DNA from: a virus
DNA length: 24,788 nt
IMG/VR virus record: IMGVR_UViG_3300014501_000071
Location: 1 to 24,788 of that record
Direction: 5' to 3' (one strand)
Shown in pieces: positions 862-20,382 of this stretch. The position numbers and the translations under genes were made by a program. Every line of letters begins with the position of its first letter. Within the stretch, counting starts at the first letter, position 1. The notes under the pieces are model-generated. The model was given only the letters and a program-made list of their open reading frames with translations, did not search any database and was not told where the DNA came from.

Positions 862-3582
862 CTACGCCTTAGCCTCAGACCAGCGATCGACAATCTGAGC
901 GTCAACCGTCAAGGGCACTTTAACATACTTCTGAATCCCCGGGCCGGTCATCGCGTCAACCATCAGCTCACGCACGTACTCTGCCTTACCCCGGGGAGAA
1001 ACAGCTACCAGCTCATCATGCACCGTCATCGTGAGATACGCTTCGGGCACATGCTGCTGAAGCCGGTCATCGAACCTGATCATGGCCAGCTTAATCAGGT
1101 CAGCAGCCCCGCCCTGAATAAGGCTGTTGAATACCTGCCGCTCGGCTGCGGCGCGCTTCTTCTTATCCCCCGAGAGCATCGCCAGCACACGGCGCTTACG
1201 TCCGAGCAGGGTAACCACATGCGGCGGTCGGCGGCTCCTGCACTCCCCGAACACCTGACGCTTAAACGCGGGCACCTCGGGAAAGTCCCTGTCGTACTTC
1301 TTCATCAGGGCCAGTCCGTCTTTATACCCGCCGCCGATCATAGTCCCGATAAGATGCGGGCCAGCTCCGTTTACCACAGTGAAGTTCAAGGTCTTTCCCA
1401 GTGTCTGGCGCTCACCCTTAGTTACCTGATCCGGTGTCTTTCCGGTAACACCGGCTGCGGTAACAAGGTGCGGGTCGATCCCGTTATGAAATCCCTCGAA
1501 CAATGCCCCGTAGCCTATCAAGTGCGCGAGAATCACCAGCTCTATCTGCCCGAGGTCACCCACGACCAGCACCTCATCGCCATCAGGATCAGGCAGCCCG
1601 TCAAGCAGGCTGGCGATAAACGTGCTACGCAGCAGCTTGCCGTCTTCCGTATCCGGGCGGGGAATGTTCTGAAGGTTCGGAGCCGCGCAGTTGTGTACAC
1701 ATATCCCATTGGCGATGAAATTGTGCACACCATCTACCTCCATGTCCCACACCGGCTCAACGGGGCCGGGGGAGACACTAACCACATGGTAATCAGTCGG
1801 CCCAGCGTACAGATCAGGGGCCTGGAAAGGATTCCCCGCCCCCCAATGTGGATGCAGATGACGCCTGCCACGGTGCTCTGCAATGGTCAGTGCCTCAAGG
1901 TTACTGATACTGTTATTGGCACGGTTGCAATCATGGTGATGTACGTCCGTCTTAGTACTGATCTTCTTGCCAGTCACCTGTTCGTACACCCAACGATGTT
2001 CCCGGTTCTTGCCACCACCTTTGGTGCCGTGGCTTTGTGCTACTGAATGCGGAAAGAACTTAACGTAGCCGTCATCCACGCCACGCTTTACCATCGTCAT
2101 CACCCGAGGCCCATCGTCCCGATGGGGTGCGCCTGCTCGGTGCATCAGCGAGCCAGCAGGACGCCAGTCGCCATTCCTAAGCCGCACCAGATGCTCTGGT
2201 GTCGCCCGCAAAACCAGTCGGTGCCCTTCGCTGTTCTCAGCAGTGACCACAACGGTCTGCTTCATCCCCGTCTGGCCAACCCACTTAACCTGTCGAAGGA
2301 CAAGCTCACGCTGCCAGTCGAAAGCATAAACCCAATCACCTGGCTGAACATCAGTAATGCGGATACCGCCCGGATCCTTCAGTAGATCGCGGGGCATCTC
2401 AATTAGAGAATCAGCAGACAGACAGCTCGTGCGTCCCGTCACCGTGGACCCCTGCTTAAACCCCGCGTGAATCCTGCCGTCGAATACCTGCGGCTCTTTC
2501 TCCTCGCCGTCACCCAGCCAGGAGACCACGTAGGTGTTCAGCAGCTTATGCGTATCGCCGTAGTCACGGAGCGCACTAGCAAGAGGATTGCGGGGAAAGC
2601 CCTCCAGCACTTCATCATCAGTGCTGTACCACTGATGGCTCTCCTCCTCCCCCGCGTCCTTTTTCTTCTGGCCGCCGTCTGTCAGCTTCCACGGCCGAAG
2701 TCCCTGCCCGCCCTCAGCCTTCGGGAGGAACAGCAGCTCCTGCTTCTGCGGGGCTGAGTTGATGTTGAAGCGCTTCCCGGCGGCCGAGTAGACACTCCCC
2801 TCCTGATCCACCAGCCGGGCGTTCAGGACGTCTCTCAGCTCTTCCAGCCTGGGCACGTCCACCGGCTGGCCCGCGAGCCTCATCGCGCAGAACGTGGGCA
2901 TCAGATCCTGTTCGATCTGGTGGATGGCCTCCAGGTCATCAGCGGTAATCAGAGGACGGCACCGCGTGTAATGCAGCCAGGTATAGAGCACATCCATGTA
3001 GTTGTAGTGCGCTACCTTGTTAAAGCCAAAATTCTCAACGCACTTACCCACGTTCTCAAAGTCGTACTCGACTCCGTAAACACTTTTAGTCAATGGCTTC
3101 AGCGCATAATTCCGCCGGTTCTCATCCAGCAGCCACGGCAGCACCATCGTGTCATCAAACGGAGGCAACGGCATCTCAGGATAGTACTTAGTGATCGCCG
3201 GGATGTCATAGGTGATGCCATGAGCTACCTTTGTCATCGTCTCGCTGAAGAACAACGGCTCCAGCATCTCGAAGGCAATGTCCGGACGGAGCTGCGGCGG
3301 AGGGTCGGACCACACCGGCACCTTAGCCATGTACGGCTTGCCGGTGCTGTACATGCGCGGCTCTTTAGCCGTGCCGATTCTTTCCCCGACCGGGTGTCCC
3401 GCCGGAATGACAACAGCCAACTTGTCAGTCGCAATGCCTATCCAAGTGACCCCACACAGATGAGGCACCCCCCGGTTTGCCCCCATACTTTCAACATCAA
3501 ATGCAAAAGCCTCTTGTTTCAGTACATGCTCTACAACTTCTCGAAGATGCCTTTCTGTCAGTACAATATTAGAGGAGGTCAC
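862..3582 (-). CDS. Family A DNA polymerase with 3'-5' exonuclease, intein-containing
   Basis: This is the phage replicative DNA polymerase. Numbered from the GTG at 3582 (906 residues), the exonuclease domain shows Exo I DVE (D29, E31), Exo II with D126 in HGITYDIPAI, and Exo III YNYMD (D197), so proofreading looks intact. The polymerase domain shows TGRTS...APNLQNIP (split by an intein), motif A GDLGQIEL (D676, E681), motif B RQTLGKTLNF (R725, K730) and motif C VHDE (855-858 region). There is no 5'-3' exonuclease domain. I chose GTG 3582 because GGGAGGA lies six bases upstream and because its first codons match the duplicated start at 4108. An in-frame ATG at 3606 (914 residues) is the alternative. 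After intein removal the protein is about 660 residues, normal for a phage enzyme. Motif A is unusual, with Leu-Gly in place of the common Tyr-Ser. Confidence 0.95.
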   Translation of the reverse strand: MTSSNIVLTERHLREVVEHVLKQEAFAFDVESMGANRGVPHLCGVTWIGIATDKLAVVIPAGHPVGERIGTAKEPRMYSTGKPYMAKVPVWSDPPPQLRPDIAFEMLEPLFFSETMTKVAHGITYDIPAITKYYPEMPLPPFDDTMVLPWLLDENRRNYALKPLTKSVYGVEYDFENVGKCVENFGFNKVAHYNYMDVLYTWLHYTRCRPLITADDLEAIHQIEQDLMPTFCAMRLAGQPVDVPRLEELRDVLNARLVDQEGSVYSAAGKRFNINSAPQKQELLFLPKAEGGQGLRPWKLTDGGQKKKDAGEEESHQWYSTDDEVLEGFPRNPLASALRDYGDTHKLLNTYVVSWLGDGEEKEPQVFDGRIHAGFKQGSTVTGRTSCLSADSLIEMPRDLLKDPGGIRITDVQPGDWVYAFDWQRELVLRQVKWVGQTGMKQTVVVTAENSEGHRLVLRATPEHLVRLRNGDWRPAGSLMHRAGAPHRDDGPRVMTMVKRGVDDGYVKFFPHSVAQSHGTKGGGKNREHRWVYEQVTGKKISTKTDVHHHDCNRANNSISNLEALTIAEHRGRRHLHPHWGAGNPFQAPDLYAGPTDYHVVSVSPGPVEPVWDMEVDGVHNFIANGICVHNCAAPNLQNIPRPDTEDGKLLRSTFIASLLDGLPDPDGDEVLVVGDLGQIELVILAHLIGYGALFEGFHNGIDPHLVTAAGVTGKTPDQVTKGERQTLGKTLNFTVVNGAGPHLIGTMIGGGYKDGLALMKKYDRDFPEVPAFKRQVFGECRSRRPPHVVTLLGRKRRVLAMLSGDKKKRAAAERQVFNSLIQGGAADLIKLAMIRFDDRLQQHVPEAYLTMTVHDELVAVSPRGKAEYVRELMVDAMTGPGIQKYVKVPLTVDAQIVDRWSEAKA
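1690..2424 (-). other. Class 1 intein with HNH endonuclease, in DNA polymerase
   Basis: A 245-residue in-frame insertion interrupts the conserved TGRxS...PNLQNIP motif of the polymerase. It begins with Cys (CLSADSLIEM, block A), has a block B-like RATPEHLVRL, and ends with block F/G HNFIANGICVHN followed by Cys at +1 of the C-extein. These are the residues expected for standard (class 1) protein splicing. Between the splicing blocks, near residues 155-185 of the intein, lies VHHHDCNRANNSISNLEAL followed by a third His, an HNH homing endonuclease motif. Splicing would rejoin TGRTS to CAAPNLQNIP. Removal is needed because the motif lines the polymerase active site. Confidence 0.93.
3568..3582 (-). 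repeat. Second copy of polymerase start codons (imperfect direct repeat)
   Basis: The first five codons of the polymerase (GTGACCTCCTCTAAT, V/M-T-S-S-N) repeat those at 4094-4108. 13 of 15 bases match and the only difference is a Ser codon (TCC against AGC), so the peptide is identical. This copy overlaps the last codons of the endonuclease gene in another frame and has its own ribosome binding site GGGAGGA. Confidence 0.8.
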
Positions 3583-4108
3583 GGTACGTCCTCCCACTAG
3601 AAACATTGCCGATCACCTGAGGAGAACAGTTAAAGCGCTGCGCTAGCTCAGCACGCTCACCAGTGCCCCAACGTTTCCCGTTGTACTGCTGACGAATAAT
3701 TGCAACCTCCTCGGGCGTAAGAGACGCCTGCGGATTACGTGAACCCAAGCAATGAGGATCTACAAAGCCATTCCAGCTCGTAACAATAGAAACTAGCTGT
3801 GCACGCCTTCGCGACAAAAACCAAGGTGCCAGAGCAGCCATAATTGCATAGCTTTCAGCATTCCTCTGACTAACCCACACCCATTGATCCTTATGAAACC
3901 CTCCGCTAGCACGGGGAACTTTATAAGGGCCGTAAACACTGCCAACTCCAGCTACCGCATGCGCGCGACGAATAACATCTTCATCGGTCATCTTGATTTT
4001 AATGCGCAAAGTGTTGCGACTCTTTCGTTCCAGAGTGAGAGAACCTTCCCCTTCCACCAATCCGGCGAGCCAGGCAAGGTTCTCTCGTGTCCAATTAGAG
4101 CTGGTCAC
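3569..4108 (-). CDS. Free-standing LAGLIDADG homing endonuclease with C-terminal HTH
   Basis: 179 residues from GTG at 4108. The single LAGLIDADG-type motif LAWLAGLVEGEGS (residues 11-23, likely catalytic Glu21) indicates a homodimeric enzyme of the I-CreI type that makes a site-specific double-strand break. The core continues to about residue 115. Residues 130-175 (LTPEEVAIIRQQY...AELAQRFNCSPQVIGNVSSG) look like a helix-turn-helix of the kind often appended to phage homing nucleases. The gene abuts the stop of a 43-codon gene and its stop overlaps the polymerase start, so it sits exactly between an upstream gene and the polymerase. Its first residues MTSSN are the same as those of the polymerase. 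Codon choice looks more AT-rich than the neighbours, consistent with recent transfer. Confidence 0.88.
   Translation of the reverse strand: MTSSNWTRENLAWLAGLVEGEGSLTLERKSRNTLRIKIKMTDEDVIRRAHAVAGVGSVYGPYKVPRASGGFHKDQWVWVSQRNAESYAIMAALAPWFLSRRRAQLVSIVTSWNGFVDPHCLGSRNPQASLTPEEVAIIRQQYNGKRWGTGERAELAQRFNCSPQVIGNVSSGRTYRDLL
4094..4108 (-). repeat. First copy of polymerase start codons, used by the endonuclease gene
   Basis: GTGACCAGCTCTAAT lies directly after the TGA of the upstream 43-codon gene, where the polymerase would be expected to start without the insertion. It now encodes the first five residues of the endonuclease. It matches 3568-3582 except for a synonymous Ser codon. Confidence 0.8.
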
Positions 4109-4240
4109 TCACTCCTCATTCATTTTCTCGACGGCCATTTCCAGGGCTTCCTGCTCTGTCTCAGCCTCCACCACGATCTCCCTGGCCTCGCTCCCGCCGC
4201 CTGCTACGGCGCGGTAATAAGGAAAGCGGTACTCGGTCAC
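4109..4240 (-). CDS. Small hypothetical protein, 43 residues
   Basis: An open frame of 43 codons from GTG at 4240, overlapping the stop of the previous gene by GTGA and ending directly before the start of the homing endonuclease gene. The peptide runs from MTEYRFPYYRAVAGG to EALEMAVEKMNEE. It has a short beta-like start and a strongly acidic helical end. The exact coupling on both sides and the amphipathic pattern support a real gene, though it is short. It resembles in build the 68-residue protein at 14302-14508 (a beta-strand start, then AETxxEA and an acidic helix), which suggests but does not prove a common small-protein family. Function unknown. Confidence 0.7.
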   Translation of the reverse strand: MTEYRFPYYRAVAGGGSEAREIVVEAETEQEALEMAVEKMNEE

Positions 4241-5055
4241 GTCTCCAGTTCGCGCTGCCTTGCCAGCAGTTCCTTGTGCGAATCGACACGGATGACATCG
4301 GTGTCGTACATCTCGCTGGCCAGGTCGTCCAGCTCAGACTCGGTGAGGGGAGCCATCTCCCAGTCGTCTTCCAGGTCACGCGCCCGCACCAGGTCAACGG
4401 TGTAGGTGAAGCCCTTCTTCTTGCCCGAGGTCTTCTTGACAACGATATACACATCGCTGTCACCCAGGCCACGGTCCTTCTCGGCCAGCTCTTCAGCACG
4501 CTCACCGAGCCGGGCAGCCGGGTCGGGACTAAGCCGCCAGTACTTGGTCTCCGGGATCAGCTCATCGTCCTTGCCGAAGACATTCAGGTCCACGACGTTA
4601 AGATATGAGAAAGGCTTAGGCGTGTCGCTGACCGCGCACAGCGGGCATTCCTTGGTCTCCTCGCATGACCAGGACTTCCGGCCGTCCAGCTCCCAGATAA
4701 AGTGCTCGAAGGCAGTCTCGAAAGGCTCGTCCTCCAGCGGCTTGAGAAGATAGCGGGTGTTCTCCTCCTCCGCCTTGAACTCGCCCTCATCACTGTACTT
4801 GCCGCTGCCAGCCTTAGCCTGTGCTTCCTTCGCGGCACCCCAGCCTTTCCGTGCTTCCCTGCGGGGGGGCGGAGCGGCCTCAGCGGCACGCTCAGACCTC
4901 GGGCGGCGGCGGGTGGTCTCTTCCTCAGCGGGAGCCTCTGACCGCCCGCCACGGCCACGCCGTGAGCTACGGGATGACCGCTCCTCCGTCACGTCTGCCT
5001 CATCATCTGCCGAAGCACGGGCGGACCTGCGCCGTGCGATTGGGTCTCGTGCCAT
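4237..5055 (-). CDS. Probable phage single-stranded DNA-binding protein
   Basis: 272 residues from ATG at 5055, which overlaps the upstream stop (TGATG) and has GAGGAG at a good distance. A GTG at 5082 in frame would add nine residues and is less likely. Residues 1-80 are a highly charged Arg/Glu/Ala/Pro tail, probably disordered. A globular part follows with YLLKPLEDEPFETAFEH and then a Cys cluster (C131, C137, C140 in SCEETKECPLCAVSD) and FSYLNVVDLNVF. This pattern, a CPLC metal-binding element followed by beta strands, is what I associate with gp32-like ssDNA-binding proteins of actinophages. The C-terminal region is acidic, as is common in SSBs for partner recruitment. Its place before the polymerase fits. 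The assignment rests on pattern recall and is moderately sure. Confidence 0.55.
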   Translation of the reverse strand: MARDPIARRRSARASADDEADVTEERSSRSSRRGRGGRSEAPAEEETTRRRPRSERAAEAAPPPRREARKGWGAAKEAQAKAGSGKYSDEGEFKAEEENTRYLLKPLEDEPFETAFEHFIWELDGRKSWSCEETKECPLCAVSDTPKPFSYLNVVDLNVFGKDDELIPETKYWRLSPDPAARLGERAEELAEKDRGLGDSDVYIVVKKTSGKKKGFTYTVDLVRARDLEDDWEMAPLTESELDDLASEMYDTDVIRVDSHKELLARQRELET

Positions 5056-5297
5056 CAGTGATTCTCCTCGCTGTTCAGCCACTCATGAATGTAACTATCG
5101 CCTTCTGGCGAATCCGGGCCGCATGCTGTCGTGAATGCTATCTTCTCCAGCACGGGATGCAAAGTGCTGCGGACCTGCTCATTCAGTGCCGCCTCAGTTA
5201 CGCCCAGTGACGTATCGCCATCAGCCCCGGCGGTTACGCGGACCATCTCATAGTTGCCCATCTTTACCGTGTGAGTCACGGAAAGGGAAATAATCAT
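5055..5297 (-). CDS. Small hypothetical protein, 80 residues
   Basis: 80 residues from ATG at 5297, coupled to the gene before it by an ATGA overlap and to the gene after it by TGATG. It starts with beta-like hydrophobic segments (MIISLSVTHTVKMGNYEMVRV), then has a Gly/Asp-rich turn and a helix (EAALNEQVRSTLHPVLEKI). The end is acidic. It has no signal peptide, membrane segment or catalytic motif that I can name. It lies between a MerR-like DNA-binding protein and the probable SSB, so a replication-linked role is possible. Function unknown. Confidence 0.75.
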   Translation of the reverse strand: MIISLSVTHTVKMGNYEMVRVTAGADGDTSLGVTEAALNEQVRSTLHPVLEKIAFTTACGPDSPEGDSYIHEWLNSEENH

Positions 5298-5716
5298 GCG
5301 TCCAGTTCCTCAAATCGCAGCGCTGCCTCAGCCGCGAATTCCAGTAGCTGAGAACGCTTGCAGTTCTTTGCGTTGCGCAGCCCTGCCTTCTTGTACTCGG
5401 AGATGATTGCCAGCACCTGCTCCCGTGTGTAGATCCTGCGGCGCTTTGACTCTACCTTACCCGGCGTTCTGTATGCCTCGGGCAGGATGCCGTCACGATC
5501 CCAGGCGCGGAGCGTAGCCGTGGACTTACCGAGAAAACGGGACAGGTCACCGATAGACCAGAAGTCCACCAGCGGCCCGCCGTCTTCTACAGGCAGGCGG
5601 ATATACACATCACCCAGGTCAACGCGGCTAAGGTCGGGGGCCGCCCTGTTCGACGGCTCCCCGACCTGCACCTTGGAACAAGGGTAAGTACCCTGAAGCT
5701 CCCTTGAATCAGGCAT
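5294..5716 (-). CDS. MerR-like helix-turn-helix DNA-binding protein
   Basis: 140 residues from ATG at 5716, overlapping the upstream gene by eight bases. Residues 53-105 (FWSIGDLSRFLGKSTATLRAW...GILPEAYRTPG...RRIYTREQV) form a MerR-type winged helix: a helix-turn-helix that begins with IGDLSRFLG, the TLRAWxRxGxLP signature, and a wing ending in RRIYTREQV. The C-terminus is a helical, Lys/Arg-rich segment and lacks the metal- or ligand-binding Cys of classical MerR regulators. It could regulate phage genes, or act as an excisionase-like or replication-linked DNA binder. The sequence shows binding only, not the target. No integrase is visible in the window. Confidence 0.75.
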   Translation of the reverse strand: MPDSRELQGTYPCSKVQVGEPSNRAAPDLSRVDLGDVYIRLPVEDGGPLVDFWSIGDLSRFLGKSTATLRAWDRDGILPEAYRTPGKVESKRRRIYTREQVLAIISEYKKAGLRNAKNCKRSQLLEFAAEAALRFEELDA

Positions 5717-6194
5717 CGTCCGCCTGAAGCGGCCAGAGGGCGTACCTATCCTCGCCCTTGACCCAGAGACCGTCGAACTGCGCCTGGGTAATCCTGCCCT
5801 GCAAGAGCAGGACGGCGAAGTTGTCGTAGTCCCACACCGTTTCCCGGTGCGTGACCTGCTTGAGCAGGCCCAGCTCCGTGGCCAGTGCCTCAGCCATGTC
5901 CGGGTCGATCAGCTCGGCCCCGGGGGACCTGCGCAGCTCGAAGCCTACGTAGACCTTGCCCCCGTCAGGGACGGTGCGGCCTGCGGGGAACCGGCGCACG
6001 ATGTGCCCGGTGGTCTCGTCCTCGACAACGCCGCCCTTCTCCACCCATGCCGTGATCTCAGGCTTGAGCTTCTTGCGCCGGGAGTCCGATGCCAGGGCCT
6101 GCGCCCGGTGGAAGATGAACGTCTGGGCCTTCGACATGAAGTCCCCGACCGTGCTGCGGACCTTGCGGCCTGACGTCTTGGTAACCGTAGCCAT
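5709..6194 (-). CDS. Hypothetical protein, 161 residues
   Basis: I start it at ATG 6194 because AAGGGA lies ten bases upstream. A GTG at 6203 is only one base from that site and is unlikely. The N-terminus MATVTKTSGRKVRS is basic and the rest has mixed helix and strand character, with a charged segment KKLKPEITAWVEKGG and a later acidic stretch. The gene begins after a 57-base gap, one of the few gaps in the array, and overlaps the MerR-like gene at its end. I see no known motif, membrane segment or zinc site. Function unknown; the basic N-terminus could bind nucleic acid. Confidence 0.75.
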   Translation of the reverse strand: MATVTKTSGRKVRSTVGDFMSKAQTFIFHRAQALASDSRRKKLKPEITAWVEKGGVVEDETTGHIVRRFPAGRTVPDGGKVYVGFELRRSPGAELIDPDMAEALATELGLLKQVTHRETVWDYDNFAVLLLQGRITQAQFDGLWVKGEDRYALWPLQADDA

Positions 6195-6251
6195 GTGTCT
6201 CACATCCCTTGCTCTAGTTGATGCCTGAAGGCTAGCACACCCCCCCGACAG

Positions 6252-6539
6252 TCAGCGTCCCGGCGGGATCCAGACGGGTGCCGATGGCCAGGGCGGATAG
6301 TACTGCTGCGGCCAGACAGGGAGCGCGGCGGGCAAGGACGGTCCAGGCAGCGGAACGAACTTCTCCCAGGCCGGGAACTGAGGCTGCTCGGTCAGCTCGA
6401 TGTCCGTGACCTCCCAGTCGGGGTCCAGCCAGCTCATCGCGTTCGCCAGCGCATCACCCGAATTAACGCCCAGGACTATGTATTTAAACGTGACAGTAAC
6501 ACCATTAGCGGTAACAGTTGCCTTTACTCCATATTTCAT
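6252..6539 (-). CDS. Hypothetical protein with proline-rich tail
   Basis: 95 residues if started at ATG 6539, which has CAGGAG about nine bases upstream. An ATG at 6569 overlaps the helicase stop by ATGA but has no good ribosome binding site and would give 105 residues. The first 50 residues look like beta strands (KYGVKATVTANGVTVTFKYIV) followed by a helix and an acidic strand. The last 35 residues are rich in Pro and aromatic residues (PLPGPSLPAALPVWPQQYY), likely disordered or a docking tail. No family recognised. It follows the SNF2 helicase, with its own stop before a 57-base gap. Confidence 0.7.
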   Translation of the reverse strand: MKYGVKATVTANGVTVTFKYIVLGVNSGDALANAMSWLDPDWEVTDIELTEQPQFPAWEKFVPLPGPSLPAALPVWPQQYYPPWPSAPVWIPPGR

Positions 6540-6565
6540 GGCAGCATCTCCTGTAGCCCTGGTCT

Positions 6566-9172
6566 TCATAGCCCCGGGACCGTGTCTTCCAGGAACGCAG
6601 TCAGTGACTGCACATCGTTTTTCACATGCCCTCGCTTATCCGCGCCATGACGGTCCCGCACTGCTTTCCAGACCTTGCCCTTCCACTTTACCATGCTGAG
6701 TTTTCTCTCCTCGATCGTCCCACGGGTAATCATGTTGTGCACGTAGATCTTGGAGAACTCGCTGCTCGCCCTATCATGCCGGTGATCCACCTGGCTGTTG
6801 CGCCCGGCACTCCACGGCAGGTCGTACTTAACGAGGTGGTCGGCCATATACATGTCGCAGCCGTAGGCACCTGCATGAGAGGAGATAAACACCCGCAGCT
6901 CAGGGTCATCAGTGAACCTGGCAATAGCCTGGTCCTTTGCCCCGGCCGACATCCCCCCGTGGTACTGCACGCAGGGAATGGCCAGCTCAGCCTCGATAAT
7001 ATCCAGCATATTGCGCCACTGCGTGTAGATAAGCACCTTACTTTTACTATCAAAGTCCAAGATCAATTGTACTTTTCTCGTGAGTTCCGACAATTTGGCG
7101 GACTCCAAGGCGTCGTCGTAAAGACCGGCCTGCCACTTGCCATAGCAGTACCGCGAGCCTGCCTGACCCAGGGTGTCCTGGTAAAGGATGCCGGACTCAA
7201 CTGGCAGGTCGGGATGGTCAAGGAACAGCTCCATTGCCTGGTGAATAGACATGACCTTACCGACAGCGGTATCCATTGCCGTTCCCCCGGCGTAATGCGC
7301 GGCCAGGTCAAAACTGACGTTCCCTCGTATCCGCTGAAGGGCCTCGTACAACTCACTGGCCATGCCAAAGTAGGGACCAGCAGTCAGCACGTCCATGTCC
7401 ACATGCCAGATGTCCTCGGTAAAATCGGGAAGGTACGGCTTGACATCGGGATCAGCCCGCGCGGCCCGGAACCATGCCGGTGCCATAAGGTCATGCAGCA
7501 CCGGAGTGTTCTTGTACTTAGTGACCTGGCCATCATCCCGCCGGTCAACAAAGGCGCTGTCGAATACATGCGGCTGCCCGAGCACGCTCTTGTCAACCCA
7601 CTCCATGATGGAGTACAGCTCCTCGGGCCTGCCGTTCTCCATAGGCGTCCCGGTCAGGGCCAGCCTGTATTCAGGCCGCAGTGTCTTCTTGATCCTGACA
7701 GAACGCCCGGATCCAGCCCCGGCTATCTGCGTAGCCTCATCCAGGACCACCATGCCCGGGCGAATCCTCCGCACCTCGCGGACGTCATCAACGACATTCG
7801 GGTATCCGAGGATGACGTAGTCGGTATCAGATGTGATACTCGCGTACTGAGCCTCACGCTTAGCACGGGTGCCGTCGATCACCACGCACTGCGGCGCGGC
7901 GGGCAGCTCGGTAAATACCTTCTTGCGCTTCTTCATCTCGGTAGGCAGGTCGGTGAATTTGACAAGCGCGCGAGCCCACTGGAACTTCAGCGCGGGGGGC
8001 ACCACCACCATGCAAAGATCTATGTCCCCGCAGCCCAGCAGCTCCTCCGCGCAGGCAATGGCAACGGGGGTGTTGTGCGTGACAATGAAACCTCGGGTGA
8101 CATACAAATGATCCGGCGCGTCAACCAATATGCACACCGCGTCCTCTTCGTGAGAATACTCAATACTCTTAATGCAGCGCGCAGGAGGGTACTTTGACGG
8201 AACTATGTATTTACCCACCTTTCGGGACAGTCGGAACGGCGCCAGCTCGGGCGGCAGCTTAACGTTCACCCGCCAGGATGGTCTTCCCTGCTTACGTTCA
8301 CCTTTGTAGGTGTACCAGGTCCGTCGTGAGCCACTAACACGCGCCACACCGCCAAGAGACTGCGCGAGTTCGACAACACCATCACGCAATGTGGGCAATG
8401 TGGTGCTGAATTCTGTGCCACCAGTGTGCTGGGGTGTACCGTCTGCATCCATCAGACCTTGCAACAATGCCAGGCGGTTTTCAACCGACGCACGCAAGTA
8501 TTGCTCAGGGATGTTCTTGTTACCGATCACACCAAGACTGCGGAGCTGTCCTACAAGTCCGTGAATTGTGTACGCATAAGGACGCGTGTCAGTTCCGTGG
8601 TACGACACGTCGTACCCCGCAGTCGTAATTTGGTTAACAATTTCTGCATCGGCACTAGTGAAGCCCCCGCTGAGTGAAGTACCGTCCCCAAGCCACACAC
8701 CAAGAACATATGGATCAACCGGAAGAGCAGACGCGGGGGAGTACTGCACAGGCTTAGCCATAGGTATCTTCCAGCGCAGATTGCCTGAACCAGCGTGTGT
8801 CAAACTATCTTCCAATTCAGCAGTGGTCTTCACAACCCACTTACCTGCTTGCCGCCCACTAACACGTTGCACAGACCACAGATGTTCAGGTCCGGCGTAA
8901 GTCCAGCTACCGTCATTCATCGTGACCTTGAGAACACGACGATCCTTCTGAGGAAACACGCCAACAACACGCACAGCAGTCCCATCACTGCCTATAACCT
9001 CGTCACCCGGCACCAATTTACCAATGGGTGTCCAGCCGCGTGGCGTAAGCACAGGCTCAGAAACAGGTTGCAACTTGCCGGTGCCCATGTCCATCGCGGC
9101 AAGCATAAGGCCGCGCCCGAGGAACTTATCGACAGCGCGGTCCTGATACGGATGCAATCTTTTAGTTATCAC
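6566..9172 (-). CDS. SNF2/DEAD-like superfamily 2 helicase, intein-containing
   Basis: 868 residues from GTG at 9172; an in-frame TGA directly before it rules out an earlier start. Host motifs: LHPYQDRAVDKFL (Q-motif-like, 6-18), Walker A GTGK/T split by an intein (residues 30-33 and 368), Walker B VVLDEAT (476-481), motif III LALTGTP, a second RecA-like domain with VLIYTQWRNMLDIIE, and motif VI QVDHRHDRAS (794-803). These mark an ATP-driven DNA translocase of the SNF2/helicase-like type, common in actinophage replication modules. Without the intein it would be 534 residues. There is no recognisable ribosome binding site, but a promoter-like pair sits just upstream. The partner genes are the primase and the RepA-like ATPase. 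It could remodel forks or load replication proteins; the specific role is inferred. Confidence 0.93.
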   Translation of the reverse strand: MITKRLHPYQDRAVDKFLGRGLMLAAMDMGTGKLQPVSEPVLTPRGWTPIGKLVPGDEVIGSDGTAVRVVGVFPQKDRRVLKVTMNDGSWTYAGPEHLWSVQRVSGRQAGKWVVKTTAELEDSLTHAGSGNLRWKIPMAKPVQYSPASALPVDPYVLGVWLGDGTSLSGGFTSADAEIVNQITTAGYDVSYHGTDTRPYAYTIHGLVGQLRSLGVIGNKNIPEQYLRASVENRLALLQGLMDADGTPQHTGGTEFSTTLPTLRDGVVELAQSLGGVARVSGSRRTWYTYKGERKQGRPSWRVNVKLPPELAPFRLSRKVGKYIVPSKYPPARCIKSIEYSHEEDAVCILVDAPDHLYVTRGFIVTHNTPVAIACAEELLGCGDIDLCMVVVPPALKFQWARALVKFTDLPTEMKKRKKVFTELPAAPQCVVIDGTRAKREAQYASITSDTDYVILGYPNVVDDVREVRRIRPGMVVLDEATQIAGAGSGRSVRIKKTLRPEYRLALTGTPMENGRPEELYSIMEWVDKSVLGQPHVFDSAFVDRRDDGQVTKYKNTPVLHDLMAPAWFRAARADPDVKPYLPDFTEDIWHVDMDVLTAGPYFGMASELYEALQRIRGNVSFDLAAHYAGGTAMDTAVGKVMSIHQAMELFLDHPDLPVESGILYQDTLGQAGSRYCYGKWQAGLYDDALESAKLSELTRKVQLILDFDSKSKVLIYTQWRNMLDIIEAELAIPCVQYHGGMSAGAKDQAIARFTDDPELRVFISSHAGAYGCDMYMADHLVKYDLPWSAGRNSQVDHRHDRASSEFSKIYVHNMITRGTIEERKLSMVKWKGKVWKAVRDRHGADKRGHVKNDVQSLTAFLEDTVPGL
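8072..9073 (-). other. Class 3-type LAGLIDADG intein in helicase Walker A
   Basis: A 334-residue in-frame insertion splits GTGK/T of the helicase. It starts with Leu34 of the precursor (LQPVSEPVLTPRGW), not Cys or Ser, and ends VTHN followed by Thr. It carries the three residues that define class 3 inteins: Trp99 in block B (PEHLW), Cys347 in block F (AVCILVD) and Thr365 in block G (VTHN). In that class the block F Cys starts splicing in place of residue 1. Two LAGLIDADG motifs, YVLGVWLGDG (about 155-164) and LLQGLMDADG (about 236-245), mark a single-chain homing endonuclease with acidic catalytic residues in place. Confidence 0.92.
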
Positions 9173-9179
9173 TCAGTGA

Positions 9180-9302: not shown

Positions 9303-9306
9303 GGCC

Positions 9307-10496: not shown

Positions 10497-10515
10497 ATTA
10501 ACTAATCCTCTCTCC

Positions 10516-12030: not shown

Positions 12031-12032
12031 CG

Positions 12033-12584: not shown

Positions 12585-12600
12585 TTACTTCCTGGTCAGC

Positions 12601-13735: not shown

Positions 13736-13778
13736 GTGGTGACCCTCCTAGAGTCTGGTTACGTCTCGTGCGAGTGTA

Positions 13779-13946: not shown

Positions 13947-13951
13947 TTTTT

Positions 13952-14302
13952 TTACTCACCTAGCTTAGGGATCCTGTTGCCGGGTCCGCGAGGGCCTGTC
14001 GCATGCACATCGGCCCGGCTGCGCTTGCGGGGAAGACGGAACTGCGGCACGTACGCCCGCCAGTCCCAGTGCTGCGGCGGGGGCAGCAGTCCCATCCACC
14101 CGGCCAGAAGGTTAATCAGGCAAGCAGCTCCTGCTGCTGCACCGGCCAGCAGAAGCGGGGGGGTGGCGTAGGTGATGATCAGCCAGGCAATGACAGCGAC
14201 AACCACGGGTGACAACCGGCCTGAAAAGCCGAATGGCAGCAGCGGGGTCACGGCATTCCAGGCGAAGAACACCGCAAGGGACGTGAGCAATAGCGACAGC
14301 AC
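13952..14302 (-). CDS. Small membrane protein, possible holin-like
   Basis: 116 residues from GTG at 14302, which shares one base with the upstream stop (TAGTG) and has GGGAG six bases before. Three hydrophobic segments are visible: about 1-20 (MLSLLLTSLAVFFAWNAVTP), 30-47 (VVVAVIAWLIITYATPPL) and 50-73 (LLLAGAAAGAACLINLLAGW). The rest is a soluble tail, rich in Arg, Gly and Pro. Size and layout resemble phage holins and other small membrane proteins, but there is no endolysin gene beside it, so holin is only a possibility. Confidence 0.75.
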   Translation of the reverse strand: MLSLLLTSLAVFFAWNAVTPLLPFGFSGRLSPVVVAVIAWLIITYATPPLLLAGAAAGAACLINLLAGWMGLLPPPQHWDWRAYVPQFRLPRKRSRADVHATGPRGPGNRIPKLGE

Positions 14303-14508
14303 TACAGCTCCCAGTCATGGTAAATAGTGTCATCCCACTCTACTGCTCTGTCCCTGGATACAGGCGCGGCTACCTCTATGTGCGTTCCATCGGGCCGGTC
14401 AGTGTCGTAAATTACATCGAAGGCTTCGTCTAGCGTTTCGGCCTCCGCCCACTCCAGCACCATCTGGTTGTCGTAATAGAGCATTACCTTGAACGGGAAT
14501 TTAGGCAT
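14302..14508 (-). CDS. Small acidic hypothetical protein, 68 residues
   Basis: 68 residues from ATG at 14508, with a weak GAGG about a dozen bases upstream, starting 15 bases after the stop of the second adhesin gene. It reads as two beta strands (FPFKVMLYYDNQMVLEWAEA) then a helix (TLDEAFDVIYD), a turn and further strands, and is strongly acidic. It has the same build as the 43-residue protein at 4109-4240. No known motif. It couples to the membrane protein gene by one shared base. Confidence 0.75.
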   Translation of the reverse strand: MPKFPFKVMLYYDNQMVLEWAEAETLDEAFDVIYDTDRPDGTHIEVAAPVSRDRAVEWDDTIYHDWEL

Positions 14509-14522
14509 GCACGCAGTCTACC

Positions 14523-16226
14523 TCATTGCGAATAAGGGCACGCGTACAGCGGCTGAACCACGGTCAGGCCCAGCGGCGTGTGCCTGTCGAGCACGTCGTT
14601 CACCGTAGCCTGGCCCGCCACGAGGTTTTCATAATAATAGCTTCGGCACAAACCCGGTGTGCCCCCCGTCTCCCAGAGATAGTCCGGGTTGGCAAAGTTC
14701 CCGTCGAAGTACGGGCTGACGATGTCGCCCTCCTCGATCAGTACCGCATCCGTCCAGTAGGTGGGAGTAGCGGTCAGCCCGGAAGCTGCTATCAAAGCGA
14801 TAGTGAGTGCGGGCGCATCATCGTTCGTCGTAAAAATAACAGACTGCTGTGTCCAGCCGGTTGCCAGGTTGCCAGTTCCGACACTCAGGCTGGCACTGGC
14901 AACTCCCGCGCAGGTCATCACCACATCAGCCGTCCCGGCGGGCACTAGTACCCAGCATGACGCTACGTAAGTGTTTCCCACGATAAGCTGGGGCACGACA
15001 ATGCTCAGTCCGTTAAATCTGGCAGCGGAGACCACCTTGCAGGATGAGGCACCCGCAGATAGCAGTACGCCGTCCCACTCCCCGAAACTCGCCGGGAGTG
15101 CCACAGTGCCATCCTGAGTCAGCACAGACGATCCTAGCGCTGTCCAGCCTGCGGTGCTGACCCCGAAGCTCGGGTTGGTGCAGAAGTTCAGGCGCGTCGG
15201 CTTGACGATGACATGCAGTGCCCTGGGGGTGTCGTAGGGCGATGGTCCCGGTGAGGTATCGTCAAAGCCGTCATCACCTGTCAGCGGCATCTGCTCTACC
15301 TGTACCGACGTGACGTTCTGACTCGCACCTGCGGGAACATTGGCAAACTCCCAGCCCACAGCCATATATGCTGCTCGCTTCCAGGTGAAGCCGCCACTTG
15401 AATTGGGGTAATCAAGCGGGGGGTAAAAGATGCCCCAGACGCGGTTGTAAGCGGTCTCACCGCTTGAAGTGTTAGCATTGTTCCACCCTACGTAAGACAT
15501 GGCCGGGTCAATATCTGAGGAAGGCCACAACGCGAAATCATCCAGCGCACCGACCGGATCCCCGACCACAAGCCCGGTGATCGTACCGCCAGAGGCGATG
15601 TCACCCGATGCCCCGAAGGTGAAGATCTCACCCTGGTCGATGATGGCGGCAGTGCCCTCAAGGTACATGCCGCCGGTCGCGGCAATCGCATTGAAGTACA
15701 GCAGCTCCGAGGCCGAAAGTCCGGGGGTGCCCAGCCACTGGCAGCCAAGCTTATCCCCGTCGATATACTCGCTGACCGTGGCACTCGGCTCATACTGGAC
15801 CGCGTCCACCAGGAAGGTCAGATCCTGGGCGACAGTAGTTTCCAGCAGGATGTAGACAGTGCTCTCAGCGGTTACTGCCAGCCCGGGAAATTCTATGCGC
15901 TGCCATCCGGGGTTAATAGAGACCACCTGGCTGGCCAGGATGACACCGCCGGGGTTAGACACCGCACTGATAATCACGCTGCCGGATTCCCCGGTGATAT
16001 TAAGGCTCAGGCTTGCCGGTCCCGAAGAGGCAAACGGCACGCATTCAGGCCCGTAGAAGCCCTCACTGGCGATCAGTCCGTCAGTGACAACCTGCATAGA
16101 GTACTGCCCGGCCACGGCGTCAATGGACGTCTGCGTGATAGTCGTCCCGGGCAGGGGAGTCCACCCCAGGAGATCTATCTCGAAACTCGGGTTGGGGCAG
16201 AGATTCTGGATAACCGGCGGGCTCAT
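14523..16226 (-). CDS. Minor tail protein with two carbohydrate-binding-like modules
   Basis: 567 residues from ATG at 16226, overlapping the large adhesin's stop (TGATG). Two modules start with the same signature: LCPNPSFEIDLLGW (about 8-22) and FCTNPSFGVSTAGW (about 347-361). They end in DAVQYEPSATVSEYIDGD and DAVLIEEGDIVSPYFDG, each followed by a Trp- and Gly-rich TPG segment. This is the CBM4/9-like beta-sandwich layout common in actinophage tail tips. Between them is a region with a possible concanavalin-like fold (about 180-335). The last 50 residues (LVAGQATVNDVLDRHTPLGL) may bind the next tail component. Its role is most likely host-surface glycan binding. No enzymatic motif was found. 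Confidence 0.85.
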   Translation of the reverse strand: MSPPVIQNLCPNPSFEIDLLGWTPLPGTTITQTSIDAVAGQYSMQVVTDGLIASEGFYGPECVPFASSGPASLSLNITGESGSVIISAVSNPGGVILASQVVSINPGWQRIEFPGLAVTAESTVYILLETTVAQDLTFLVDAVQYEPSATVSEYIDGDKLGCQWLGTPGLSASELLYFNAIAATGGMYLEGTAAIIDQGEIFTFGASGDIASGGTITGLVVGDPVGALDDFALWPSSDIDPAMSYVGWNNANTSSGETAYNRVWGIFYPPLDYPNSSGGFTWKRAAYMAVGWEFANVPAGASQNVTSVQVEQMPLTGDDGFDDTSPGPSPYDTPRALHVIVKPTRLNFCTNPSFGVSTAGWTALGSSVLTQDGTVALPASFGEWDGVLLSAGASSCKVVSAARFNGLSIVVPQLIVGNTYVASCWVLVPAGTADVVMTCAGVASASLSVGTGNLATGWTQQSVIFTTNDDAPALTIALIAASGLTATPTYWTDAVLIEEGDIVSPYFDGNFANPDYLWETGGTPGLCRSYYYENLVAGQATVNDVLDRHTPLGLTVVQPLYACPYSQ

Positions 16227-19200
16227 CAGGTGGGCTCGTGCACTATACCGTGTCTTGTGGCTGTGTCGTTGAACGCATCAGTCACGCTAGCCACCTGATT
16301 ATTTCCGTTGCGGTAGACGGTAATGGAAGAACCATTCAAGACTACCTGCAACCTGTCGTTAGGAGCACATGGAGTAGAGTACGTGGCCACTGTCGTCCAC
16401 ACTCCGGACACCTTTTTCCGCAACGTTGCGGATCCAGCCCGCCAGTAATCCGTGTCATCAGAATACCGGAAGACCAGCCCGTGGCTGTTTCCCGCCAGCG
16501 GGGGTGCGCGAAAGGTGATGCCGAGGTTCGTATTGGCCGGGCCGGTGACCAGGGCGAGCGAGCGAGCAGAAGGATTAGCAGGCCAGACACTGCCCCCCTC
16601 GAAGCCGCCGACAGTAAAGCCGCCGTCAGGAACATTCCAGACCGACTGCTCATCATCGGTCGTGCGACCTGCCAGTGAGCTGGAAACAGAATAGACCGTG
16701 CCCCCGCCTCCCGGCCAGGAGTAGGTAAACGGCGAGGTCACCTCAAGGGAGTCGGAGATAACACCACCAGGCACGTTTTCCTGGTAACTGAAAGCTGACC
16801 AGGCCAGGTCCCCGTAATGCGTCTGCATAGTGCCGCCCGTGCTGGTATGCCGGGATTCCCCGCTGACCGTGACGATAGCGGTGGACGCCCCGGCAGGCAC
16901 CGTTCCGGAGATAGAACTGACTCCCGTGGCCGTGGCGATAGGGTTATGGGCACTGTCGTAAAAAGATATCTGCGAAGCAGGATCAGTTGGCGTGCCAGCA
17001 CCGTACCCGGGAACATTCTCGGCTACGTAATTATCCGAGAATGTGAACTCCGCTCCGGGAGTAGCCGGGAAAGAAGGCAGAGAATAAGGGCTGTCGAGAG
17101 AACTTTGAACAGTTCCTGCTGATGACAGCAAGTTCGGGCCAAGGCCGCCAGCGGGAACGGCTGCGACAGACAGGTCCACCTCTATTGTGTACGTCACGCC
17201 GCCGGTAAGCGCGATAGTTCCGGACACTGGCGAGCTGACAGGAGAAGACCAGTTATTAATAACCTGAGTGCCGCCGACGAATAGCCGCGAGGATCCCTGA
17301 CTCTGGATCGTAAAAGAATACGTGCCATTACGCGGAGCTGTGATAGTCCCTATCCATGAAGCTGACCAGCCCGAAGAAGGCATGCCGGAAGCGGGGGGCG
17401 ACCCTGCCCAGTTGTAATTTACTCCGGTTTCCACGTCTGTGTGCACAGGAGTGCCGGACAACGTCGTGTTAGCGTAGTAAGACGCAGTCCAGCCCGGCGC
17501 GGCAATGCCCAGGGATGAACTTCCCCCCGAGCTTCCCGAGGATATGAAAGACTGCGTGGTAAATGAGTCAAAGGCCATCAGGTTCGGGCGGGCCGTCACG
17601 CCCCCGCCCACGTTAGGGTTGCGGGCGAACACCCGGGCAAGGAAGTTGCCTTGCTGATCAAACCATTCAACAAACGGAATTGCCTGCGCGGTGTTGTTCG
17701 TGCCGACACTCAGATCCTGAGAAAGGTAACCACTGATGCACAGCCTGATGCGCTGATCCTGACTAAGCGGAGCCCATTCATTATTCGCGGTGTTGTTGGT
17801 GTTCGGCGCGACACCTGAGGAGGCTTTCAGCGCGGTGAATGGCTGCCCGTTGTACGACACGATGTCGTTGGTAGCGTACGTGGCAGCGGGATCCCAGCTC
17901 TGGCTCGGACGCACCCAGGGAACGGGGATGCCGTCAGACACCGCGTTGATCTGGTCAACCGGCCAGGACGGGCTCAATGCCAGCCCGGCGACTACACTCA
18001 TGTCATCCAGGTAAACGACATCGGTGACCAGGGACGGGCTTTCGATAAAGAAATTCAGGGACAAGTACGACGCATTCGACGGGGCAGTACCGGACACAGT
18101 AAGATTCGTCCAGGTAGCGGCGGCTAGTGTTACGACCGTGCCGAAGGCAGAATTAATCGGGGCACCATTCTGGTCGTACCACTGCATGGAGGCAAAGACC
18201 TGCTGACTCAGGGCACCGGGTGAGTAAGCGTACATTGACCCGGTAACAGCGGTACCTCCCGGCACCTCCACCCAGGGGGACAGGATGCCCGGATCAGGCC
18301 CGGCACCGCCGGACACCAGCCTTGCTGACCAGATGCCGGTATGGGCGAATGCCTGCGAGCGATCGAAGTCGCAATTCTGCTGAGTCCAGTAAGCTGGCAC
18401 GAGAAAATCATCGCGGTCATTGGCGTTGCTGTCAGTCCCGCTCTCAAAAAGCAGGGGCCAGTTCCTGGGCACCCAGGATTTCCTGGTAACTGGTGCCGAG
18501 GACTTCACGGTAAAGCCGCTCTCGAAGCCGCCGTCAGGCAGCGTACCGAGATCTACGTGCCTGCGGGCCACAGAGCGAGCCCATAGTGTCTTGGCAGAGC
18601 CCTGCCGGTTGTAGAATCGAAGCGCATTCCAGGCATTGTAATTCGTCGTGGGGGCCGTAGGGTTAGGAACGCCCAGTGCCTGCGTGATAGCCGGGCCGGT
18701 AGCAGCGGGCGCTGGTATGCCATTTGCCGCAGAACTATCCAGCACTTCCCATGTGCTGGGCGCGGTAGTCTCCGGGTTTGTCAGGTCGCAGAGAAAGTCA
18801 TCCTGATTCTTAACGCAGTGCCAGTTGCCGTTTGAAGATCCGTTATTCGGAGGAGAGATGCCCCGTAGTCCTTCAGTCAGGCACTGATACCAGAAGCCAT
18901 CGCCTGGCCATCCAAAGCGAAAGTCAATTCCCCAGTGCGGGATCCACACGCACTCGTAGATGTGGTAGCACTTGGCAGGAGTATAGGGCAGGATGATATT
19001 CCCGAGGAATTGCGCCTGGTCATCCTCCAGCAGTATGTTCGGGCCGATCTGAACGTCTGCACTCCAGCCTGTGCGCAAGGTTATCTCATTGTTGATTCCC
19101 AGGAATGTTCCCCGCTCCTGGCTGACATGCGCCCAGTTGAGCACGGCCTTTCGCACAGCATACGCAGGAATCTCGGTACTAAAGGTAAGTCCGACCTCCG

Positions 19201-19741
19201 CCGCCATGTTCCACAGGTCATCCAGCGGGATGAACAGTGGGTCATTAAGGTGCTTGAACAGCACATCGTACTGCGTTCTCAGGTAATCCATCGCCCAGCC
19301 GAGAACATCAAGGAATTTTTGCAGGTACACATTCCCGGCTGCATCGGTAGTCAGCTCCCCGCCAGTTGCCGGGATGGTCTTCATGCACTGAGGAATAAGA
19401 TCCAGCATCTGAGCAGAGGAACTGAAGTTCTTAACTGCCAGGCAGGCAGCAAGCCCGGAGCGGATCCAGATATTATCCGCGATATCAACAAGCACGTAGA
19501 AAGCGTAATAGTGGTACGTCCCGGGAATGACATTCTGGTCTAGGTAAGAAGATCCCGGGTAAGTAACAGAGTCGTAGATCAGCGTGCCGTCATTCTCATT
19601 GACCGGGTAGCCGTACCGATTCGCGAGAAGGCGGAAGCGGAACATAATCCCGGAAGGCTGCTTCCAGCTAACCCTGATGCTCCCGTAGTCAATGGAGGCG
19701 GCGGACATAGGTGCGACAAGGTACGCAGGCGGAAGGGACAA
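16226..19741 (-). CDS. Large multi-domain tail adhesin with gpI-like domain
   Basis: The open frame gives 1171 residues from TTG at 19741, but the true start is probably 19791 with a one-base frameshift. Domains in order: FN3-like region (about 5-105); a P2 gpI-like baseplate domain (110-235, with LQKFLDVLGWAMDYLRTQYD and the GTFLGI...ITLRTGW block); a CBM4-like sandwich (about 440-585); a CBM5/12-like chitin-binding module (616-657, SWDPAATYATNDIVSYNGQP); a PA14 domain (about 750-860); and a laminin-G-like C-terminus (about 1060-1171). The combination joins baseplate attachment with several glycan-binding modules, so it is likely the main receptor-binding protein. It starts behind an opposite-strand homing endonuclease gene that separates it from the jelly-roll protein gene upstream. 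Confidence 0.88.
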   Translation of the reverse strand: MSLPPAYLVAPMSAASIDYGSIRVSWKQPSGIMFRFRLLANRYGYPVNENDGTLIYDSVTYPGSSYLDQNVIPGTYHYYAFYVLVDIADNIWIRSGLAACLAVKNFSSSAQMLDLIPQCMKTIPATGGELTTDAAGNVYLQKFLDVLGWAMDYLRTQYDVLFKHLNDPLFIPLDDLWNMAAEVGLTFSTEIPAYAVRKAVLNWAHVSQERGTFLGINNEITLRTGWSADVQIGPNILLEDDQAQFLGNIILPYTPAKCYHIYECVWIPHWGIDFRFGWPGDGFWYQCLTEGLRGISPPNNGSSNGNWHCVKNQDDFLCDLTNPETTAPSTWEVLDSSAANGIPAPAATGPAITQALGVPNPTAPTTNYNAWNALRFYNRQGSAKTLWARSVARRHVDLGTLPDGGFESGFTVKSSAPVTRKSWVPRNWPLLFESGTDSNANDRDDFLVPAYWTQQNCDFDRSQAFAHTGIWSARLVSGGAGPDPGILSPWVEVPGGTAVTGSMYAYSPGALSQQVFASMQWYDQNGAPINSAFGTVVTLAAATWTNLTVSGTAPSNASYLSLNFFIESPSLVTDVVYLDDMSVVAGLALSPSWPVDQINAVSDGIPVPWVRPSQSWDPAATYATNDIVSYNGQPFTALKASSGVAPNTNNTANNEWAPLSQDQRIRLCISGYLSQDLSVGTNNTAQAIPFVEWFDQQGNFLARVFARNPNVGGGVTARPNLMAFDSFTTQSFISSGSSGGSSSLGIAAPGWTASYYANTTLSGTPVHTDVETGVNYNWAGSPPASGMPSSGWSASWIGTITAPRNGTYSFTIQSQGSSRLFVGGTQVINNWSSPVSSPVSGTIALTGGVTYTIEVDLSVAAVPAGGLGPNLLSSAGTVQSSLDSPYSLPSFPATPGAEFTFSDNYVAENVPGYGAGTPTDPASQISFYDSAHNPIATATGVSSISGTVPAGASTAIVTVSGESRHTSTGGTMQTHYGDLAWSAFSYQENVPGGVISDSLEVTSPFTYSWPGGGGTVYSVSSSLAGRTTDDEQSVWNVPDGGFTVGGFEGGSVWPANPSARSLALVTGPANTNLGITFRAPPLAGNSHGLVFRYSDDTDYWRAGSATLRKKVSGVWTTVATYSTPCAPNDRLQVVLNGSSITVYRNGNNQVASVTDAFNDTATRHGIVHEPT

Positions 19742-19791
19742 TCCGTACGTGTCTGTGCCATAGGTAAAGTTGAGATGCCGTAAACCGTCAT
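19742..19791 (-). other. Displaced 5' end of the adhesin gene with apparent frameshift
   Basis: ATG at 19791 has a strong AGGAGGT and AGGAG upstream and encodes MTVYGIS. The adhesin frame, read back from 19741, gives FTYGTDTYG directly before the TTG codon but finds a stop before any ATG or GTG. One extra T in the TTT run at 19766-19768 (minus strand) would join them into MTVYGISTFTYGTDTYGLSL. That would be the usual repeated Tyr-Gly start of actinophage tail proteins. It is either a real mutation, a sequencing error in a homopolymer, or a weak frameshift signal. Confidence 0.65.
19771..19791 (-). repeat. Second copy of adhesin start codons (imperfect direct repeat)
   Basis: This 21-base stretch encodes MTVYGIS and matches 20362-20382 at 17 of 21 bases. 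All four differences are at third codon positions and synonymous (Thr ACG/ACA, Gly GGC/GGA, Ile ATC/ATA, Ser TCA/TCC). It has its own strong ribosome binding site and lies next to the open adhesin frame. Confidence 0.8.
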
Positions 19792-19824
19792 CTCCTACAT
19801 CACCTCCTCTGTCCGTACACCTGG

Positions 19825-19836
19825 TACACTAAGTGT
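19825..19836 (+). promoter_or_regulatory. Candidate -10 for a leaderless endonuclease transcript
   Basis: TACACT (19825-19830) lies six bases before the ATG at 19837, so the A of the ATG would be about +1. It is preceded by TGG, a partial extended -10. No ribosome binding site is seen before this start. The gene runs against the phage operon, so it needs its own promoter. No clear -35 was found. Confidence 0.35.
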
Positions 19837-20358
19837 ATGGACACTTCTTGGCGAGAAGAACTCGCATGGGCGGCTGGCTTCTTCGATGGTGAAGGTAGCA
19901 CTGGGTTTAACGATCCCATTCGTAAGTACGGACGCATGTCTATTCATCAGGTAGACAGGCGTTCGTTGTTCAGATTCCGGGCGGCTGTACTTGACCGAGG
20001 AACCATTCGCGGCCCTTATGATAAGGATACCGGACAACCTATTTCGCTCTGGGAGTGCACTACTTTTCAAACCGTGCAAGCTGTTCTTGCTATGCTTTGG
20101 CCTTTTTTGGGTGAAGCTAAAAAGGAACAAGCTAAGCCCGTGCTGTACACGATGAACTTCAGCCCGCCTCGCCAGGAGTTTGCTGATGATCGAACGTACG
20201 TGATGAATGGTAGAACATGTCGTCAGGCTTACGAGTTTTGCAAGAACGGCAAAGGGCCGCATCGTAAAACACCCGCCAACACCACCAAATGGGGGCAGTG
20301 CCGAGAGTGCATGCGGATATTCGATCGCGCTCGGCGTCCTCCGGGGAGTAAGCGCTGA
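19837..20358 (+). CDS. Free-standing LAGLIDADG homing endonuclease, opposite strand
   Basis: 173 residues from ATG at 19837, the only clear plus-strand gene. The single LAGLIDADG motif LAWAAGFFDGEGS (residues 9-21, catalytic Glu19) marks a homodimeric homing endonuclease. The core resembles the endonuclease at 3569-4108: ...IRGPY... and AVLAMLWPFLGEAKKEQ align with SVYGPY and AIMAALAPWFLSRRRAQ. Its C-terminus differs: it has Cys128, Cys135, Cys155 and Cys158 (CRQAYEFC and CREC), a zinc-ribbon-like DNA-binding module. The gene sits between the jelly-roll protein gene and the adhesin gene and is flanked by a repeat of the adhesin's first seven codons. Its base composition looks lower in GC than the neighbours. 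It would cleave a phage genome lacking the insertion. Confidence 0.87.
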   Translation: MDTSWREELAWAAGFFDGEGSTGFNDPIRKYGRMSIHQVDRRSLFRFRAAVLDRGTIRGPYDKDTGQPISLWECTTFQTVQAVLAMLWPFLGEAKKEQAKPVLYTMNFSPPRQEFADDRTYVMNGRTCRQAYEFCKNGKGPHRKTPANTTKWGQCRECMRIFDRARRPPGSKR

Positions 20359-20361
20359 CTC

Positions 20362-20382
20362 GGATATTCCGTAAACTGTCAT
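20362..20382 (-). repeat. First copy of adhesin start codons, stranded by the insertion
   Basis: ATG at 20382 lies three bases after the TAA of the jelly-roll protein gene, the normal spot for the next gene in this array. It encodes MTVYGIS, then runs directly into the end of the opposite-strand endonuclease gene, whose stop is at 20356-20358. It is likely the original adhesin start. Confidence 0.8.

Follow-up and report, generated by a model that had tools for sequence, protein, structure and literature searches.

Phage endonuclease genes of the I-CreI type that probably home into gene starts with a diverged substitute start

How an endonuclease gene can occupy the very start of an essential phage gene, where nothing is spliced away, is the question raised by two sites in IMG/VR virus record IMGVR_UViG_3300014501_000071, a phage fragment whose 24,788 bases are the window analyzed here. 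The genes concerned are those for a family A DNA polymerase (site 1) and a tail adhesin (site 2), and at each an endonuclease gene (END), END1 or END2, lies between two short stretches that encode the gene's first amino acids. Probably such endonuclease genes home into gene starts and bring with them the donor's own diverged version of the start. The initial annotation, which was made from the letters alone, had recognized related single-motif LAGLIDADG genes at the two gene starts, and that kinship is borne out.

3569 to 4108, minus strand: END1, a single-motif LAGLIDADG endonuclease gene of 179 codons (phrog_5046, E 5e-17)
19837 to 20358, plus strand: END2, a single-motif LAGLIDADG endonuclease gene antisense to the tail adhesin gene (phrog_5046, E 6e-6)

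The two proteins match each other with E 4e-7 in a protein comparison within this genome, share phrog_5046, and have one LAGLIDADG motif each with its conserved acidic residue (LAGLVEGEG in END1 and AAGFFDGEG in END2). The AlphaFold model of END1 has a pLDDT of 85.6 and its best PDB matches are of the I-CreI family; the model of END2 matches the folds of I-MsoI, I-CvuI and I-CreI (E 5e-6), and both models match I-CreI and I-MsoI at E about 1e-5, with I-CvuI among the matches. The Pfam LAGLIDADG_3 match of END1 is below the family cut-off. On motif and modeled fold both are predicted to be free-standing, single-motif homing endonucleases of the I-CreI type. I-CreI, I-MsoI and I-CvuI are single-motif homodimeric enzymes encoded in group I introns of organelle genes, and END1 and END2 resemble them in fold, in the single motif and in the homodimer to be expected. 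phrog_5046 is labeled 'HNH endonuclease', a label copied into several phage records, yet its members here have the LAGLIDADG motif and fold. No relatives of END2 were found in named phages, and a search of the whole window against named phages gave no match.

The anatomy is clearest at the adhesin.

16226 to 19741, minus strand: tail adhesin gene, with a PA14 domain and a CBM5/12 match; a relative in L010 is 68% identical
20362 to 20382, minus strand: remnant of the old adhesin start, ATGACAGTTTACGGAATATCC, adjoining the stop of the upstream gene as at the empty site of L010
19771 to 19791, minus strand: new copy of the adhesin start, ATGACGGTTTACGGCATCTCA, encoding MTVYGIS as does the remnant
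19792 to 19810, minus strand: element-borne ribosome-binding region ahead of the new start, GAGGAGGTGATGTAGGAG
19763 to 19767, minus strand: extra nucleotides TTACC, by comparison with L010, L011 and L224, which break the frame after the new start
19795 to 20382, minus strand: open frame of 195 codons antisense over END2, stopping 3 nt before the new ATG

Read along the gene strand, the order is the end of the upstream gene, ATGACAGTTTACGGAATATCC, END2 in antisense, the ribosome-binding region, ATGACGGTTTACGGCATCTCA and the adhesin. The two copies specify the same seven amino acids and differ at four nucleotides, all of them silent (P 0.002 against random placement), as the initial annotation had it for this site. 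In L010 (L-numbers denote the phage loci or contigs surveyed) a single adhesin start, MAVYGISLLGEDTFGLSLPPAY, directly follows the homologous upstream gene, and L011 and L012 likewise have a single adhesin start and no END. Because these empty sites have one start, an insertion after codon 7 accompanied by a second copy of the first seven codons is well supported by sequence comparison. The same adhesin start has been entered in L224, where an END2-like gene (42% amino acid identity over residues 1-168), also antisense, stands between a remnant, ATGGCAGTTTAC, and a new start of its own; read from TTG/TTG/GTG, that new start keeps the frame.

The site 2 frame would be restored if the old adhesin start were joined to ACC TAT GGC, as by removal of a group I intron or an intein with END inside it, and family members do lie in group I introns elsewhere (L003 and L005, near capsid-like genes). 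The Rfam run that detected the introns of L003 and L005 gave none for the window and none for those duplication loci that were searched. An intein would share the reading frame of its host gene, and neither endonuclease does so: the END1 stop is in a different frame from the polymerase and END2 is antisense. The new start of L224 needs no joining to be in frame. A spliced element is very unlikely, and the initial view that nothing needs splicing is supported. Genuine inteins are present in the window away from these endonucleases, an HNH-bearing one in the DNA polymerase (862-3582) and, in an SNF2-type helicase (6566-9172), a LAGLIDADG-bearing one located at the Walker A motif (MGTGK/T), so that with END1 and END2 the fragment has at least four homing elements.

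Is the arrangement recurrent? Four scans of IMG/VR, three by profile and one of the END2 type, together with named phages, gave 201 non-redundant usable endonuclease loci. In a flank test the left flank of each endonuclease was compared with the right in all frames, with mismatched flank pairs as the null (402 tests); in a start-registered test all start codons to the left were compared with all those to the right. The same duplication was sometimes scored on both strands, so the counts are of tests and not of cases, and the cases were then read by eye. Flank duplications scoring at least 50 were found in 12 of the 402 tests against 0.13 expected, and start-registered scores of at least 24 in 8 against 0.3; site 2 scores 30, a value reached by 4 tests with 0.0 expected. 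About a dozen loci besides the window have a diverged, protein-conserving duplication of a gene start or end. Duplicated starts are those of ThyX in L105 (46 codons), a DNA methyltransferase in L325 (Dcm, PRLLDLFCGAGGAA), a protease in L061 and a phage head-protein family in L137, with further ones in L130, L147, L254 (endonuclease antisense), L216 and L224. Ends are duplicated in L151 (DNA polymerase, 19 codons), L208, L272 (helicase-like) and L114 (between two baseplate genes), and probably also in L187. An endonuclease-borne element type that enters gene starts and provides a substitute start, as first proposed, is then real and recurrent in phages, far above the mismatched-pair null, though L151, L208, L114 and L272 extend it to gene ends. 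Three other candidates were dropped on reading: L297 (VSGHV), whose upstream copy is the end of another gene, and L230 and L249, where the stretches overlap.

Direct repeats flanking an insert are also what a transposase or recombinase would leave by target-site duplication, with random mutation thereafter. Against this, the duplications vary from 5 to 46 codons, the endonuclease is the sole gene in the insert, and the copies differ mostly at third positions (28, 17 and 89 differences at codon positions one, two and three over 12 cases). Such an origin is the least probable of those considered.

Other placements of the family came up in the same survey. In named Microbacterium, Arthrobacter and Rhizobium phages and cyanophages with family members the endonuclease is packed tightly between genes, and no convincing start duplication was found. 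In marine phages and cyanophages (L007, L008, L019, L031, L035, L045, L049 and others) it has a single position, with DNA polymerase ending on one side and an exonuclease gene starting on the other, and overlaps both, in what looks like a position-stable lineage. In Mycobacterium phage BaboJay (L017, 2327-4156) a family member lies between RNA ligase halves gp89 and gp91, with a 29-nt overlap with the second, an arrangement that could be either a split gene or an intron. L073, L080 and L103 have a tandem two-motif form, possibly a duplication-fusion step from single- to double-motif enzymes.

Where the second copy of a gene start comes from is best addressed at thyX. In L105 the old ThyX start, 46 codons long, still precedes END and ThyX; L074 and L107 have the same END and ThyX and no remnant. 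In identity to L105 these two are at background (<0.45) ahead of END, rise to mostly 0.8-0.97 from END through the first ~50 codons of ThyX, and fall to mostly 0.6-0.8 beyond, so that the transferred tract and the duplicated segment end at about the same place. Isolated Streptomyces phages tell a similar story, Braelyn, Navo, Anedea and Samisti12 having an endonuclease at the thyX start and NootNoot, EGole and Riptide lacking it. Braelyn and NootNoot differ by 44 silent and 4 replacement changes in thyX codons 1-80 and by 4 silent and 1 replacement in codons 81-240; between Samisti12 and EGole, thyX identity is 74.7% in the first 324 nt and 88% in the aligned stretch that follows. By these identity profiles END is transferred in one piece with 50 to 100 codons of the gene start in the ThyX loci, isolated phages included. 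The inserted terminus is accordingly foreign and acquired with the endonuclease, to judge from L105 with L074 and L107, from Braelyn and from Samisti12; for the window, codon usage gives indirect evidence of the same. The thyX start has been reached by family members in at least three unrelated groups, the L105 group, Rhizobium phages and Streptomyces phages (L105, L016, L337, L343, L344).

LAGLIDADG recognition sites, such as that of I-CreI, would span these start codons, and the initial annotation had the gene rebuilt by a recoded start. A purpose-built substitute, actively recoded under selection against cutting, would account for all four site 2 differences being silent (P 0.002). It fits less well with ThyX, where silent divergence spans 50-100 codons, far past a ~22 bp site, and with the replacements found alongside, in 12 of 46 codons in L105, as in ordinary orthologues. 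Purpose-built recoding is an improbable explanation, and the silent differences are best read as those of an imported, diverged orthologous gene end: the imported start would be silently different because it is an orthologue from another phage. That the differences also protect from cutting is plausible.

Site 1 has the same elements in a more compact form.

862 to 3582, minus strand: family A DNA polymerase gene with an HNH intein (Pfam DNA_pol_A E 3e-68, HNH_3, Hint)
4094 to 4108, minus strand: probable remnant of the old polymerase start, GTGACCAGCTCTAAT, fused in frame to END1, a layout shared with L061, L130 and L325
3568 to 3582, minus strand: new polymerase start, GTGACCTCCTCTAAT, within the end of END1, with a GGGAGG ribosome site at 3590-3595
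3469 to 3582, minus strand: first 38 polymerase codons, a presumptive element-borne tract with foreign codon usage

The first five codons of END1 match the polymerase start and its last codons overlap the present one. GTGACCAGCTCTAAT and GTGACCTCCTCTAAT both encode MTSSN from start codons and are equal at 13 of 15 nt, one Ser codon having been switched silently, so the initial description of silently differing copies rests here on a single codon. The first 38 codons of the polymerase have a GC3 of 0.34, the rest of the gene 0.68 and END1 0.47; no later 38-codon polymerase window is below 0.45, and the value is the lowest among the 19 gene starts of the window. An endonuclease fused to the old start, with the new start at its tail, is also found in L061, L130 and L325.

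Taken together the observations fit a simple sequence of events. The cut made by END1 or END2 would fall among the opening codons of a conserved phage gene. In a mixed infection the break in an END-less gene would be repaired from an END-carrying phage, whose copy holds END followed by the donor's own diverged and protein-equivalent gene start. The recipient would then have END and the donor gene start joined to its own gene body, as a hybrid gene, and its former first codons would stay beyond END as a remnant. Silent divergence, and the splitting of the site by END, would be expected to protect the carrier from cutting. Homing by break repair is favored because the anatomy fits the process established for T4 endonucleases (PMC2988022), and it is by this route that we infer the two sites of the window to have arisen.

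Several points weigh against this explanation. Most END loci, about 185 of the 201, have no duplication. Discovery by protein similarity favors silent differences, so their excess is partly built in, though this bias cannot, on the sequences, account for the longer cases of 14 to 46 codons. In Braelyn about 1.5 kb upstream of thyX was also imported, and no remnant is present there, so ordinary recombination could carry END. At site 2 the extra 5 nt (TTACC) put the new ATG out of frame, and the adhesin frame has no ATG, GTG or TTG ahead of the TTG at 19741. The gene as read there is not rebuilt by its new start, as had been supposed; the 5-nt excess could reflect a true mutation, a mistake of assembly or some other cause. 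Site 1 and L061, L105, L130, L137, L147, L224, L254 and L325 have a new start that is in frame with the gene. The duplication at site 1, five codons long, is marginal by itself, with a start-registered score of 19, near noise (12 of 402 tests reach 18, 4.6 expected), and polymerase searches found no close END-less polymerase for comparison. Polymerases of the Streptomyces BRock group (about 42%) have their start at nearly the same position but lack MTSSN, and so do not decide the matter.

Site 1 could then have no duplication at all, END1 beginning MTSSN by chance and site 2 being the sole true case in the window. Homologues of END1 elsewhere also have Ser or Asn before WTRENLAW (ATSENW, VVSQNW, NRSKNW), and MTSSN may partly belong to the endonuclease. 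Chance would have to bring two MTSSN copies, identical at 13 of 15 nt, precisely to start codons, for which a hand estimate with both start codons fixed in register gives P about 4e-5, and would leave aside the foreign codon usage and the layout of L061, L130 and L325. It is unlikely, if less so than the other alternatives. Site 1 is probably, though not provably, a genuine duplication, because foreign codon usage and the recurring fused layout support it independently of the weak score.

The 195-codon antisense frame from 20382 to 19795, pointed out initially as a possible means of keeping translation coupled, exists as described. At the tail-gene starts of L224 and L254, whose endonucleases are antisense, the corresponding frame ends after 36 and 18 codons, and each new start has, or could have, a ribosome site of its own; coupling through this frame was rejected. 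The absence of TTA, CTA and TCA from END2 (0 of 8 Leu and 0 of 7 Ser codons) is enough to hold the antisense frame open. In a tail-type gene of L216 (~4024-4600) MAWTA is encoded both at the beginning of the endonuclease and at the new start, ATGGCGTGGACTGCG; a stop then interrupts the frame, and the gene frame is taken up again from an ACC at offset 26 relative to the ATG, which agrees with site 2 of the window in offset and frame alike. A pattern search for the expected native L216 N-terminus found no homologue.

The initial suggestion that the element type may be undescribed needs qualification, as terminal-duplicating homing elements are known in fungal mitochondria. Mobile open reading frames there (mORFs) replace gene ends with foreign, silently diverged copies, with C-terminal duplications in Allomyces atp6 and Glomus atp6, atp9, cox2 and nad3, and DNA identity between copies of 64-81% with 94-100% of the protein the same (PMC3630166). 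In both settings an endonuclease gene that enters a conserved gene brings a foreign version of the terminus, the native terminus is left as a remnant and the gene becomes a hybrid. While mORFs are mitochondrial, encode LAGLIDADG or GIY-YIG enzymes and affect 3′ ends, the cases here are in phage genomes, with small single-motif enzymes, mostly at 5′ ends, and with END sometimes antisense or fused to the old start. As in mORFs, two diverged, protein-conserved copies of a terminus flank the endonuclease gene, by sequence comparison, at site 2 and in L061, L105, L114, L130, L137, L147, L151, L208, L216, L224, L254, L272 and L325. Fungal mitochondrial introns with N-terminal duplications (PMC7315562) similarly import a foreign N-terminal gene fragment and leave an upstream fragment; those are introns of mixed splicing behavior, whereas no intron was detected here. 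The free-standing Seg and Mob endonucleases of T4 also adjoin their target genes, and home by break repair with co-conversion of flanks; they are GIY-YIG or HNH enzymes, intergenic, that cut at a distance in the neighboring gene, and the portions of that account consulted do not mention duplicated starts (PMC2988022). Nor do the consulted portions of a phage-wide study of homing genes, which describes free-standing genes near essential genes (PMC10448857). In the open-access literature, subscription journals being outside the search, no phage report of an endonuclease with duplicated gene ends was found, and the arrangement, known for fungal mitochondria, is apparently new for phages.

On balance phages seem to hold a widespread, self-contained class of element, an I-CreI-type endonuclease with a portable substitute gene start or end, the two tending to move together and driving piecewise exchange of the ends of essential genes. 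Within it the endonuclease 3′ end would often overlap the substitute start, or the endonuclease would adjoin the substitute end. A homing gene free of intron and intein can sit where the coding sequence of an essential gene begins and leave its host phage viable, as it brings the replacement. Where phage genomes have silent differences clustered at a gene start, a misannotated start codon or a short orphan ORF, such an import could be the reason, and an arrangement from fungal mitochondria becomes testable in ordinary phage crosses, for instance of Braelyn by NootNoot on Streptomyces.

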